A DNA stretch of 64,000 nucleotides from an uncultured Prochlorococcus sp. GTDB lineage: Bacteria > Cyanobacteriota > Cyanobacteriia > PCC-6307 > Cyanobiaceae. Position 1 is the first letter of the stretch; each line of letters begins with the position of its first letter. The stretch is from the NCBI GenBank assembly GCA_902560875.1, contig CACENO010000007.1, forward strand, positions 1 to 64,000, in the 5' to 3' direction. Below the pieces are notes generated by a model. The model made no database searches. It worked only from the letters and a program-made list of their open reading frames with translations, and was not told the origin of the DNA. Below, one piece after another: positions 60,243 to 64,000 of this stretch. Both the position numbers and the translations under genes were made by a program.

Positions 60243-62006
60243 ATGACAATTATTGATTGGTTGATTCTTATTACTTATTTGTTGATTTCATTGACTCTTG
60301 GTGTTTTTTTGGCGCGTAGAAACAGAAATAATGATGATTATTTTGTCGCAGGGCGTCGACTGAGTGGTTGGTTGGCAGGTGCTTCGATGGCTGCAACTAC
60401 CTTTTCGATAGATACGCCGTTATATGTAGCAGGAATAGTTGGAGCCCGAGGACTCTCTGGTAATTGGGAATGGTGGAGTTTTGGACTAGCACATATTGCA
60501 ATGACGATAGTGTTTGCACCTATGTGGAGACGTAGTGAAGTCCTTACAGATGCGGCATTTACTGAGTTGCGCTATGGAGGAGCACCAGCGGCTTGGCTTC
60601 GTGCTATCAAAGCATTTTTACTTGCTGTTCCCATTAATTGTATTGGGATTGGCTATGCCTTCCTTGCAATGCGAAAGGTTGCAGAGGCTTTGGGAATTGT
60701 TGATGGCCATCTTGTTTTTGGTGGCATTAGTGACACTATTCTGCTGATGGCCTGTGTCGCGGCTTTGCTTCTTGCTTATACCGTTATTGGTGGATTATGG
60801 GCTGTTGTAGTAAATGATCTTCTGCAATTGGTTATAGCTTTGTTCGGTGCGCTGGCCGTTGCTGTTGCTGTTATTTCAGCGGCAGGTGGGATGGATCAAT
60901 TGCTTGTGCAAATTGATGAATTAAATCGGCCTGAATTGCTTTCTCTTTTTCCTTGGCATTGGACGAATGATGGCGTGGAATGGCTTAGTGGTGCAGGGAT
61001 TAGTATTACAACCTTTATTTCATTCCTTACATTGCAATGGTGGAGTTTTCGCCGTAGTGATGGTGGGGGCGAATTTATCCAGCGAATGCTCGCAACACGC
61101 GATGAGCGCAACTCTGTTTTAGCGGGCTGGGTGTTCCTTGTTATTAATTATTTGCTTAGGAGTTGGTTGTGGATAATAGTTGCACTGTCAGCTCTGGTGT
61201 TACTTCCTGCTCAGCAGGACTGGGAGTTGAGCTATCCAACTCTCGCGATTGAATATCTACCACCTGTAGTTTTAGGAATTGTAGTTGTCTCCTTGGTTGC
61301 AGCCTTTATGAGTACGGTAAGCACCTCTGTGAATTGGGGTGCTAGCTACCTAACTCATGATCTTTATCAGAGGTTTTTAAGACCTTCAGCTGGGGCTAAA
61401 GAATTGCTTCTGATCGGTCAAATTACAAGCATATTTCTGATGTTGATAGGGATATTTACGGCTCTTGTGAGTGAAAGTATTGGGGCAGTTTTTCGTTTGG
61501 TTATTGCAATTGGAACTGGGCCTGGTGTGGTTTTAGTTCTTAGGTGGTTTTGGTGGCGGATTAATGCAGCAGCTGAGTTAGCGGCAATGCTTTGTGGTTT
61601 TGCAATTGGACTCACAACATCTGTGATTCCCGTGCTTCGTATTGAGGATTATGGTTTGAAATTAATGATTACAACATTGTTTACAGCAATTGTTTGGATA
61701 ATTGTTCTTTTCTCTACTCCAGCTGAGTCCCAAGAAGTTCTTGATAGGTTTGTTCTTAAAGTCCAACCTCCTGGGCCAGGGTGGCGGTTGATTCGACAGC
61801 GCCTTGGAGTTATGCCTGTTGAACCTTTAGGGAGCTTGATGCTGCGGTTCTTTCTTGGAATTGGAGTGCTTTTTGGAGGACTTCTTGGGAGTGGAGGATT
61901 TCTTTTACATCAGCAGAGAACTGGCTGGATAGGAATTGTGGTTGCTGTAATAAGTTTGTGGATTATGCGTAGAAAAAAAATATTTCATGTTTCTATTCTG
62001 TCTTGA
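60243..62006 (+). CDS. Sodium:solute symporter family transporter
   Basis: 587 residues with about 13-14 hydrophobic helices. The N-terminus W-L-I-L-I-T-Y and the D-D-Y-F-V-A-G-R-R-L-S-G-W motif are typical of the SSS family; A-S-M-A-A-T-T-F-S-I-D-T-P follows. Substrate unknown: the family carries sugars, amino acids, urea or other solutes with Na+. 42 bp after rlmN. Confidence 0.9.
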   Translation: MTIIDWLILITYLLISLTLGVFLARRNRNNDDYFVAGRRLSGWLAGASMAATTFSIDTPLYVAGIVGARGLSGNWEWWSFGLAHIAMTIVFAPMWRRSEVLTDAAFTELRYGGAPAAWLRAIKAFLLAVPINCIGIGYAFLAMRKVAEALGIVDGHLVFGGISDTILLMACVAALLLAYTVIGGLWAVVVNDLLQLVIALFGALAVAVAVISAAGGMDQLLVQIDELNRPELLSLFPWHWTNDGVEWLSGAGISITTFISFLTLQWWSFRRSDGGGEFIQRMLATRDERNSVLAGWVFLVINYLLRSWLWIIVALSALVLLPAQQDWELSYPTLAIEYLPPVVLGIVVVSLVAAFMSTVSTSVNWGASYLTHDLYQRFLRPSAGAKELLLIGQITSIFLMLIGIFTALVSESIGAVFRLVIAIGTGPGVVLVLRWFWWRINAAAELAAMLCGFAIGLTTSVIPVLRIEDYGLKLMITTLFTAIVWIIVLFSTPAESQEVLDRFVLKVQPPGPGWRLIRQRLGVMPVEPLGSLMLRFFLGIGVLFGGLLGSGGFLLHQQRTGWIGIVVAVISLWIMRRKKIFHVSILS

Positions 62007-62214: not shown

Positions 62215-63024
62215 ATGAATGAATTGCAAGGACATTTAGCTGATGAGGGGTTGGCAAATCTCGCCATAGATCCAGATGTGCTTGCTCGAGAACTAGAGGC
62301 TGAGTTGATAGGGGATCCTTTAGATGAGATTGATGTTGAAGAAAGTGATTCTGATGCTTTTGATGTTTCTAGAGAATGTGAAGTGGGCCTGCAGTGGTTA
62401 AAGCAAGACCATGAAAACCGTTTGCAAGGGCTAAGGGTGTTTTGTGAACACAGAGACCCACGAGCTCTTCCTTTGTTAGTCCCTCTTTTGCAGGAGCCTT
62501 GCCCCGTAGAGCGAATGAGTGCTGTTTATGCACTAGGACGTAATCCATGCCCTAGAGCTGTAAAAATCCTTCTCAAACTTTTGAGAACTGATAGCAACGC
62601 ATATGTACGCAAGGCCACAGCGTGGAGCTTAGGTAATTACTCTGATGCACCTGTTTTAAAGCCATTAATACATTCTTTGCAGAATGATGTGGCTGCTGTG
62701 CGTCTTTGGGCATCAGGTTCACTTGCTGAAGCAGGCGCTGGATCTTCAAAAAATGCTGCTATTGCTGCGAATCAGTTGCTTATAAGTTTGCAAATTGATA
62801 ATGAGCCTTTAGTACGAAGTAATTGCATTTGGGCTCTCGGTCGTTTATACGACACCTTGGAGATTCTGCGTAGGGATGAAATAGAGGAAGCTTTTTTGAA
62901 TGTTTTGCTGAATGATGCTGAGCCTTCTGTTCGTTATGAGGCTCGAACCGTGCTCGAGCAAATTGATAATCCGCCACTTAAGCAGAGGCTAAAACGCTTG
63001 GTAGATCAAGGCCTTCTAGCTTGA
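62215..63024 (+). CDS. HEAT-repeat protein
   Basis: 269 residues. An acidic N-terminus of about 55 residues (many Asp/Glu) precedes HEAT/PBS-lyase-type repeats: D-P-R-A-L-P-L-L-V-P-L-L, E-R-M-S-A-V-Y-A-L-G, Y-V-R-K-A-T-A-W-S-L-G and V-R-S-N-C-I-W-A-L-G. Such proteins are scaffolds or chaperone-like; some bind tetrapyrroles or phycobiliproteins. It begins a tight unit with DUF2997, Ycf35 and a ferredoxin. Confidence 0.8.
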   Translation: MNELQGHLADEGLANLAIDPDVLARELEAELIGDPLDEIDVEESDSDAFDVSRECEVGLQWLKQDHENRLQGLRVFCEHRDPRALPLLVPLLQEPCPVERMSAVYALGRNPCPRAVKILLKLLRTDSNAYVRKATAWSLGNYSDAPVLKPLIHSLQNDVAAVRLWASGSLAEAGAGSSKNAAIAANQLLISLQIDNEPLVRSNCIWALGRLYDTLEILRRDEIEEAFLNVLLNDAEPSVRYEARTVLEQIDNPPLKQRLKRLVDQGLLA

Positions 63025-63111
63025 TGCTTGTTTTAGAACATATTGTTGTAACAAGAACAGCCAAAAGAGCGGATTATTTTCTATAACATCACTGTTTCTA
63101 GCTTCAGATGC

Positions 63112-63318
63112 ATGCCTCAACGCATTCTGCGGTTTAAAATTCGACAAGATGGTCTCGTTGAAGAGACTGTAGAGGGAGTGCATGGAGATTCATGCCATAA
63201 ACTTACCCGCAAGTTGGAAAGTGATTTAGGGGTGGTTCAACTTCGAGAACCTACTTCCGAGTCATTCCTTCAAGGTGATGCCCAAGCTCAATCCATTTCT
63301 GTAGAACAACTTTCCTGA
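63112..63318 (+). CDS. DUF2997 family protein
   Basis: 68 residues. M-P-Q-R-I-L-R-F-K-I-R-Q-D-G and V-E-E-T-V-E-G-V-H-G-D-S-C are typical. Its TGA overlaps the ATG of ycf35 (TGATG), giving coupled translation. No assigned function; pairing with DUF1257 is usual in cyanobacteria. Confidence 0.85.
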   Translation: MPQRILRFKIRQDGLVEETVEGVHGDSCHKLTRKLESDLGVVQLREPTSESFLQGDAQAQSISVEQLS

Positions 63319-63710
63319 TGTCTCATTTTAGTACAGTTAAAACTCAACTTCGTAAGCGCCAGCCTCTGCTAAAGGCGCTTTCTGATCTCGGCTTTGTACC
63401 TATAGAAGGGGACAATTTAGTACGTGGATATCGAGGTCAAACTATCAAAGCTGAAGTGGCAGTGCCAATGAATAAAGGGGGTGATATTGGTTTCAGATGG
63501 AATGCATCTACTCAATCTTATGAATTAGTGGCTGATTTGGACCTTTGGCAGCAGGAAGTGCCTATAGAGAGATTCTTGGCAAAACTTACTCAAACATATG
63601 CACTGAATACAGTTCTTTCTGCAACTGCGAAAGAAGGTTTTGAAGTAGCAGAACAAAAAACAAATGTTGATGGATCGATAGAACTGGTTGTTACCCGTTG
63701 GGATTCTTGA
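63318..63710 (+). CDS. ycf35: Ycf35 (DUF1257)
   Basis: 130 residues. Starts M-S-H-F-S-T-V-K-T; residues 34-62 carry V-R-G-Y-R-G-Q and D-I-G-F-R-W-N, characteristic of Ycf35 encoded in red-algal plastids. Function unknown. It is sandwiched, with overlaps, between DUF2997 and the ferredoxin gene. Confidence 0.9.
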   Translation: MSHFSTVKTQLRKRQPLLKALSDLGFVPIEGDNLVRGYRGQTIKAEVAVPMNKGGDIGFRWNASTQSYELVADLDLWQQEVPIERFLAKLTQTYALNTVLSATAKEGFEVAEQKTNVDGSIELVVTRWDS

Positions 63711-64000
63711 GTAAAGAAGTTTTTGACCCTTCAGTAGCTTTTAAAGTTAAGGCTAAGGCGCTTCTTTTCCCAAATGGGAAAGAGCCATGCCTTGGGGGAA
63801 AGCTTCGTGAAAAGGCGGTTTGGGTTGATGAATCTGTCTGTATTGGATGTCGTTACTGTGCTCATGTTGCCACTAATACATTTGTAATTGAGAAACATTT
63901 AGGTAGGTCACGAGCAATTCGTCAGGATGGAGACAGCATTGAACTTGTTCAAGAGGCAATTGCAACATGTCCAGTTAACTGTATTCATTGGGTGCAATTT
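63707..64000 (+). CDS. 4Fe-4S ferredoxin (3' truncated)
   Basis: TTG 63707 overlaps the ycf35 stop by 4 bp; 98 codons are visible before the window ends. A C-I-G-C-R-Y-C cluster motif and A-T-C-P-V-N-C near the right edge supply the four Cys ligands of one 4Fe-4S cluster. The sequence between them is as in cyanobacterial DnaJ-linked or single-cluster ferredoxins. It is the last visible member of the HEAT-DUF2997-Ycf35-ferredoxin unit and could continue with another domain. Confidence 0.85.
   Translation, partial: MSKEVFDPSVAFKVKAKALLFPNGKEPCLGGKLREKAVWVDESVCIGCRYCAHVATNTFVIEKHLGRSRAIRQDGDSIELVQEAIATCPVNCIHWVQF

Follow-up and report, generated by a model that had tools for sequence, protein, structure and literature searches.

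The DUF2997-Ycf35-Fed7 trio of an uncultured Prochlorococcus as a tentative redox-switched unit of a chaperone or AAA+ pathway

Introduction

The genes encoding DUF2997, Ycf35, and the ferredoxin Fed7 have already been described together, as cluster g, in a 2014 review of the Synechocystis ferredoxins, which reports the order duf2997-ycf35-fed7 in nearly all cyanobacteria and gives no function for either DUF2997 or Ycf35 (PMC4284462). The same review assigns a variant, g', to Prochlorococcus strains (PMC4284462), and in Synechocystis the trio is reported to form a tricistronic operon. Synechocystis can do without Fed7 (Sll0662) except when oxidative, metal, salt, or iron stress is imposed, and expression of fed7 rises when inorganic carbon is limiting (PMC4284462). 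In the same organism, Fed7 binds the ferredoxin-thioredoxin reductase FtrC, through which it is reduced, and interacts with the DnaJ-like protein Sll1384; a Fed1-FtrC-Fed7-glutaredoxin redox route has been described, and an extra cysteine in Fed7 is thought to allow a switch from a [4Fe-4S] cluster to a dithiol (PMC4284462).

The ferredoxin domain of the DnaJ-Fer proteins (CDJ3-5) of green algae, plants, and Thaumarchaeota derives from cyanobacteria, with Fed7 as its nearest counterpart, and the algal proteins bind chloroplast Hsp70B and Cge1 (PMC3564930). In contrast to the locus analyzed here, their J domain is fused to the ferredoxin, and DUF2997 and DUF1257, the family of Ycf35, are not reported with them (PMC3564930). 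A stress operon of Synechocystis, slr0373-slr0374(Ycf46)-slr0376, is induced by low inorganic carbon, and EcaB activity is reduced when Ycf46 is mutated (PMC7496141, PMC7283877). Ycf35 itself appears in the open-access literature chiefly in plastid-genome reports, with DUF1257 and DUF2997 seldom mentioned; among red algae, plastid ycf35 and ycf46 are kept in most marine species and are absent from most freshwater species (PMC5940233).

Here, we analyze the trio in a stretch of 64,000 nucleotides from an uncultured Prochlorococcus sp. (contig CACENO010000007.1, positions 1 to 64,000; hereafter the window). An earlier note on this DNA had read a HEAT-repeat protein, DUF2997, Ycf35, and a ferredoxin as one coupled unit.

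Results

Gene content and overlaps of the locus

The window genome is a 1.36-Mb assembly, 74% complete and, to judge from its relatives and its size, of marine picocyanobacterial type, with a single DUF1257 gene. Four forward-strand open reading frames were confirmed at the end of the window, each with a significant Pfam match: a HEAT-repeat protein (62215 to 63024, 269 amino acids; HEAT_2, 1.5e-42), the DUF2997 protein (63112 to 63318, 68 amino acids; DUF2997, 8.2e-17), Ycf35 (63318 to 63710, 130 amino acids; DUF1257, 6.6e-37), and a [4Fe-4S] ferredoxin with a TTG start (63707 to 64000, cut by the window end; Fer4_13, 3.1e-16), whose gene continues to a stop at 64105 on the same contig. The last three are the genes of cluster g, on one strand and in the same order, with DUF2997 and Ycf35 as the core of the unit. 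The ferredoxin is of the Fed7 type, with a single [4Fe-4S] domain and all five conserved cysteines, and the pattern CxxCxxC...CPxxC, including the fifth, switch cysteine, is present in all 40 ferredoxin sequences compared.

The genes for DUF2997 and Ycf35 overlap by 1 bp (TGATG at 63318), an overlap that recurs at 9 of the 14 picocyanobacterial loci. The genes for Ycf35 and the ferredoxin overlap by 4 bp (TTGA, 63707 to 63710) provided that the TTG at 63707 is the start; an in-frame ATG ahead of the Fe-S domain was looked for, and none was found. From these overlaps, it is likely that duf2997-ycf35-fed7 is read as a single transcript. The overlaps link these three genes only, and the HEAT gene stops 87 bp upstream of DUF2997; of the four-gene unit proposed earlier, the coupling of the trio is retained and that of the HEAT gene is not. 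The 87-bp spacer (63025 to 63111, forward strand) contains a TTTCTATAA-like (TATAA-like) stretch that is common to three of four relatives in a DNA alignment, a faint hint that the spacer could hold a promoter of the trio; a consensus scan for promoters and terminators gave no signal over the shuffled background and no sigma-70 match in the spacer.

Past the window end, an aldo/keto reductase gene (contig positions 64130 to 65329, L002:2131-3330, forward strand) directly follows fed7. The unit seems to extend to this gene, which may be part of it: the reductase gene lies at -4 to 39 bp from fed7 in 13 of 14 picocyanobacterial loci (the match in L075 being unreliable), with a 4-bp overlap between the two genes in several of these relatives, and in picocyanobacteria it is coupled more tightly than the HEAT gene. 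A J-domain gene (L002:4152-4709) lies on the same strand about 2 kb downstream of fed7 and stays 1.6 to 2.1 kb from it in 14 picocyanobacterial loci. The window operon itself contains no Hsp70, GrpE, or AAA gene, there being only this J-domain gene downstream of it, and no isc or suf gene. Upstream of the HEAT gene lies a sodium:solute symporter-type gene (60243 to 62006), which is conserved at 10 of the 14 picocyanobacterial loci as well as in family f11, and the region downstream of the trio (L002:4933-9501) holds what appears from its sequence to be a run of biotin-synthesis genes.

Conservation of the trio and position of the HEAT gene

In a sample of 116 genomes of the class, DUF1257 is present in all 116, DUF2997 in 114, and Fer4_13 in 110. 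Of 40 fetched cyanobacterial loci, 39 have DUF2997 next to ycf35. For fed7, the count is likewise 39, and at the one locus without it the contig ends. The gene order is thus conserved across cyanobacteria, one of the points that the earlier note had put forward for checking, and because the same arrangement recurs across the class, it is not attributable to chance. Many cyanobacteria also carry a second Fer4_13 gene of about 300 amino acids; in one scanned copy (L065:844-1716, reverse strand), the ferredoxin domain is fused to a metallo-beta-lactamase-like domain.

By coordinates, the HEAT gene adjoins the trio in 15 of the 116 class genomes and is unlinked in the other 101. The 15 comprise every one of the 10 picocyanobacteria, together with five members of families f10 and f11; a HEAT relative is present in every class genome, away from the trio outside those 15. 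This rate comes from the 116 genomes, because about a dozen of the 40 loci had been selected through their HEAT match, which makes the HEAT frequency among them unusable as a rate. Because it adjoins the trio in so few genomes, and with no overlap in the window, the HEAT protein is better regarded as a regional, lineage-restricted neighbor than as the integral scaffold proposed earlier, a role that we reject. Both the HEAT protein and the aldo/keto reductase are probably lineage-specific accessories.

IaiH (slr1098) is a HEAT-repeat partner of IscA. The window protein shares with it the presence of HEAT repeats (Pfam). Its best match in a Synechocystis-like genome lies beside CpcT-like and carboxyltransferase genes, a context unlike that of the trio.

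Predicted structures of DUF2997 and Ycf35

Residues G14, C28, and E36 of DUF2997 are invariant in 66 sequences, those from phages and Bacillota included. Its AlphaFold2 model (pLDDT 79 overall and about 90 over residues 11 to 50) has a strand-strand-helix arrangement with the invariant Cys28 at the start of the helix. Ycf35 has a nearly invariant MSHF start, with no cysteine in the window protein and none that is invariant across the family, and is modeled as a two-layer alpha/beta domain (pLDDT 92.9, pTM 0.83). Both models are of single chains, from input alignments that left out sequences of annotated phage and plasmid entries. Foldseek and VIA-align gave no match with E < 0.001 and no close solved relative for Ycf35; its best fold similarity, to KA1-type and appendage domains, has a Z score of 6.0, which is ordinary for the method and may reflect merely a common two-layer arrangement. 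The same comparison returned nothing useful for DUF2997. Against the sequences of solved structures, Ycf35 had one chance-level match (E 0.28), and DUF2997 had weak matches to copper chaperones alone (E 0.16 or worse). Taken as models, the two structures would be compatible with a small module for binding and a thiol that is reactive.

Copies of the gene pair in cyanophages

DUF1257 genes, annotated as hypothetical, are present in phages P-SSM2, P-SSM5, and P-SSM7, which were isolated on Prochlorococcus NATL1A or NATL2A, and in P-SSM2 and P-SSM7 the preceding gene encodes DUF2997 (PSSM2_178/179 and PSSM7_222/223, corresponding to T4-GC 174 and 175; pairs in Prochlorococcus phages at L207:5802-6381 and L208:5832-6384). 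When viral contigs were scanned, 454 stretches with DUF1257 were confirmed. DUF2997 lies immediately upstream in 77 of the 80 stretches fetched (L127-L206, hypothetical where annotated), and two of the three exceptions start at a contig end. The phage pair resembles the window in gene order and in its overlap and differs from it in that none of the 80 fetched viral stretches contains fed7. The phage copies belong to T4-like genomes and adjoin ordinary auxiliary and structural genes; that of P-SSM7 sits between hli genes and psbA. In a DUF1257 tree, phage sequences form one clade (99/99) joined to picocyanobacterial ycf35 (83/95), and the phage copies are therefore most likely host derived, within a tree of 130 columns whose support is moderate and whose deeper order is uncertain.

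DUF1257 beside AAA+ and Hsp70-like genes and in NACHT proteins

Most cyanobacteria outside the picocyanobacteria have further DUF1257 genes. An AAA+ ATPase of about 500 amino acids (CDC48/PAN-like) adjoins 13 of the 18 fetched DUF1257 genes that lack fed7, and four such loci (L107, L118, L120, and L123) additionally have genes for DUF2997 and an Hsp70-like protein; in three of them, a gene of about 200 amino acids with a weak match to GrpE (E 0.0026 in L107, below the family cut-off) comes first. On a Pseudanabaena plasmid, the order is GrpE-Hsp70-DUF1257-ATPase-DUF2997-AAA. A gene for a pentapeptide-repeat protein adjoins one AAA-DUF1257 locus (L107:2160-2885). AAA, DUF1257, and DUF2997 genes also occur together on elements of Bacillus and Paenibacillus, of which L209, L210, and L220 are about 200 kb and have genes for FAD-dependent thymidylate synthase, helicase, and primase-type proteins nearby; they are possibly phage-plasmids. 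A Bacillus-type query over named genomes gave one Paenibacillus, and the spread in other phyla is accordingly undersampled. Lacking AAA+ and GrpE/Hsp70 genes, the window operon is not a member of this group of loci, and it is by analogy that its products may work in a similar way.

A third DUF1257 type forms a separate clade in the tree and is found in the gene order of a protein of about 116 amino acids, an AAA+ ATPase of about 503 amino acids, and DUF1257. Compared with the window trio, such loci have the AAA+ ATPase in place of fed7 and lack DUF2997. In layout and size they match slr0373-slr0374(Ycf46)-slr0376, and we infer from these features, rather than from sequence, that they are the same locus. 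In PADLOC, the AAA partners of DUF1257 score to IetA models, an assignment that was rejected as generic AAA similarity only.

DUF1257 of the third type is also found at the C terminus of larger proteins, one with NACHT and NNH2 domains (L221:958-4278, forward strand), one with a NACHT domain (L223:5048-7615, reverse strand), and a shorter one with no NACHT match (L222:3602-5275, forward strand). The fused domain is closely similar to the ordinary DUF1257 of a relative, a resemblance that would be expected of an integrated decoy.

Loss of the trio in genomes without photosystem II

In four genomes of one family (2.5 to 3.1 Mb), which by size and gene content look like those of diatom spheroid bodies, psaA and psbA are either missing or broken, and there is no intact trio. 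In some of them, trio remnants are broken by internal stops alongside the broken photosystem genes (DUF1257/DUF2997 remnants at G322:C1:760442-760687, G366:C1:767662-767883, and G295:C1:1077925-1078038). Two genomes of 1.4 to 1.5 Mb, which on the same grounds look like UCYN-A, keep photosystem I, lack photosystem II, and have lost the trio; the sole DUF1257 left is a partial profile match of the third type. UCYN-A has also lost carbon fixation, so loss of photosystem II need not be the cause of the loss of the trio. Thermostichus-like genomes have both photosystems without a Fer4_13 gene or a fed7-linked ycf35. The trio is therefore not essential for oxygenic photosynthesis, and its link to photosystem II is a tendency, not a rule.

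Discussion

As cluster g was published in 2014, with Fed7 mutants and partners known (PMC4284462), the suggestion that the window holds an undescribed system falls away. The redox role foreseen for the ferredoxin is indeed published for Fed7 (PMC4284462), and DUF2997 and Ycf35 were rightly said to have no assigned function: that review gives none, and both families are entered in PHROGs as of unknown function. New here are the NACHT fusions and the finding that the DUF2997-DUF1257 pair is shared by phages, by elements of Bacillota, and by AAA/Hsp70 loci.

We tentatively favor, as plausible but short of probable, a reading in which DUF2997 and Ycf35 serve a chaperone or AAA+ pathway as its client or adaptor unit, Fed7 being the redox switch. 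The two proteins would handle client proteins together, as an adaptor or holding factor, and Fed7, reduced via ferredoxin-thioredoxin reductase and able to bind a J-domain protein, would place them under redox control when its [4Fe-4S] cluster opens and exposes a dithiol. Under light, iron, or carbon stress, such a unit could help to maintain the proteins of oxygenic photosynthesis. We infer that the pair would bind each other, Fed7, and their clients and that the clients would be photosynthetic proteins. This reading draws on the recurrence of DUF1257 and DUF2997 beside AAA+ and Hsp70-like genes, on the binding of Fed7 to the DnaJ-like Sll1384 and to FtrC and the stress sensitivity of Fed7 mutants (PMC4284462), and on the binding of the algal DnaJ-Fer proteins to Hsp70B and Cge1 (PMC3564930). 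The linkage of the trio, the likeness in layout and size of the third locus type to the Ycf46 operon, the switch cysteine of Fed7 in all 40 sequences, the phage pairs, and the loss with photosystem II add to it. Against it stand the operon of the window, with no Hsp70, GrpE, or AAA gene, the weak GrpE-like match in L107, the lack of a close fold relative of Ycf35, the Thermostichus-like genomes without Fer4_13, and the phage pairs without Fed7; moreover, a shared operon does not require interaction.

The delivery of Fe-S clusters, as proposed in the earlier note, would have an IaiH-like HEAT protein, Fed7, and DUF2997 act as a carrier or scaffold for Fe-S proteins such as those of photosystem I. 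Fed7 does hold a [4Fe-4S] cluster and is needed in iron starvation (PMC4284462), DUF2997 has an invariant cysteine, and the HEAT protein is linked in picocyanobacteria. However, the HEAT gene is unlinked in most of the class, its orthology with IaiH is only putative, Ycf35 has no conserved cysteine, the operon lacks isc and suf genes, and the UCYN-A-like genomes lost the trio although they retain photosystem I. We consider this role unlikely; it has no specific support, and the genomic and published evidence points rather to a redox-controlled chaperone or AAA+ context.

It is conceivable, though improbable, that the trio, like the Ycf46-type operon, instead adjusts how the cell responds to low carbon, for instance by way of carbonic anhydrase or regulation of the thioredoxin type, and is no general chaperone. 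This would account for the induction of fed7 under inorganic carbon limitation (PMC4284462), for the behavior of slr0373-slr0374-slr0376 and the lower EcaB activity of the Ycf46 mutant (PMC7496141, PMC7283877), and for the absence of the trio from lineages that lost photosystem II, but the pair also occurs in plasmid-type elements of nonphotosynthetic Bacillota, and many other stresses affect both operons.

We are similarly doubtful of redox signaling without chaperones, in which Fed7 would serve only the published Fed1-FtrC-Fed7-glutaredoxin route (PMC4284462), with DUF2997 and Ycf35 as its dithiol targets. The invariant cysteine of DUF2997 would suit such a target; as a single cysteine, however, it requires a partner thiol, which is not conserved in Ycf35, and DUF2997 and DUF1257 occur without Fed7 in phages, AAA loci, and Bacillota.

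That the pair is a module targeted in phage-host conflict, the phage copy keeping or redirecting a host AAA or chaperone function, is very unlikely: the Prochlorococcus phage pairs and the 454 viral stretches, the NACHT fusions, and the IetA scores of the AAA partners in PADLOC speak for it, but nearly all cyanobacterial chromosomes carry the trio, the PADLOC matches are generic, and the phage copies lie among ordinary genes of T4-like genomes.

Returning to a chaperone or AAA+ pathway with Fed7 as the redox switch, it could be speculated further, at a long stretch, that Ycf35-DUF2997 is an accessory of an unrecognized AAA+/Hsp70 protein-quality family spanning cyanobacteria, Bacillota elements, and cyanophages. 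Fed7 would then provide light-redox control, the phage pair would preserve photosynthetic proteins during infection, and the DUF1257 borne by NACHT proteins, which are of immune type, would be an integrated decoy that senses attack on the pathway.

In conclusion, Ycf35 is kept in many plastids of the red-algal type and its family in every genome of the class sample, with its function unassigned. The AAA+/Hsp70 neighborhoods, the phage copies, and the losses in the absence of photosystem II make it a testable candidate for a chaperone adaptor, and marine cyanophages gain a most likely host-derived gene pair that was until now annotated as hypothetical.
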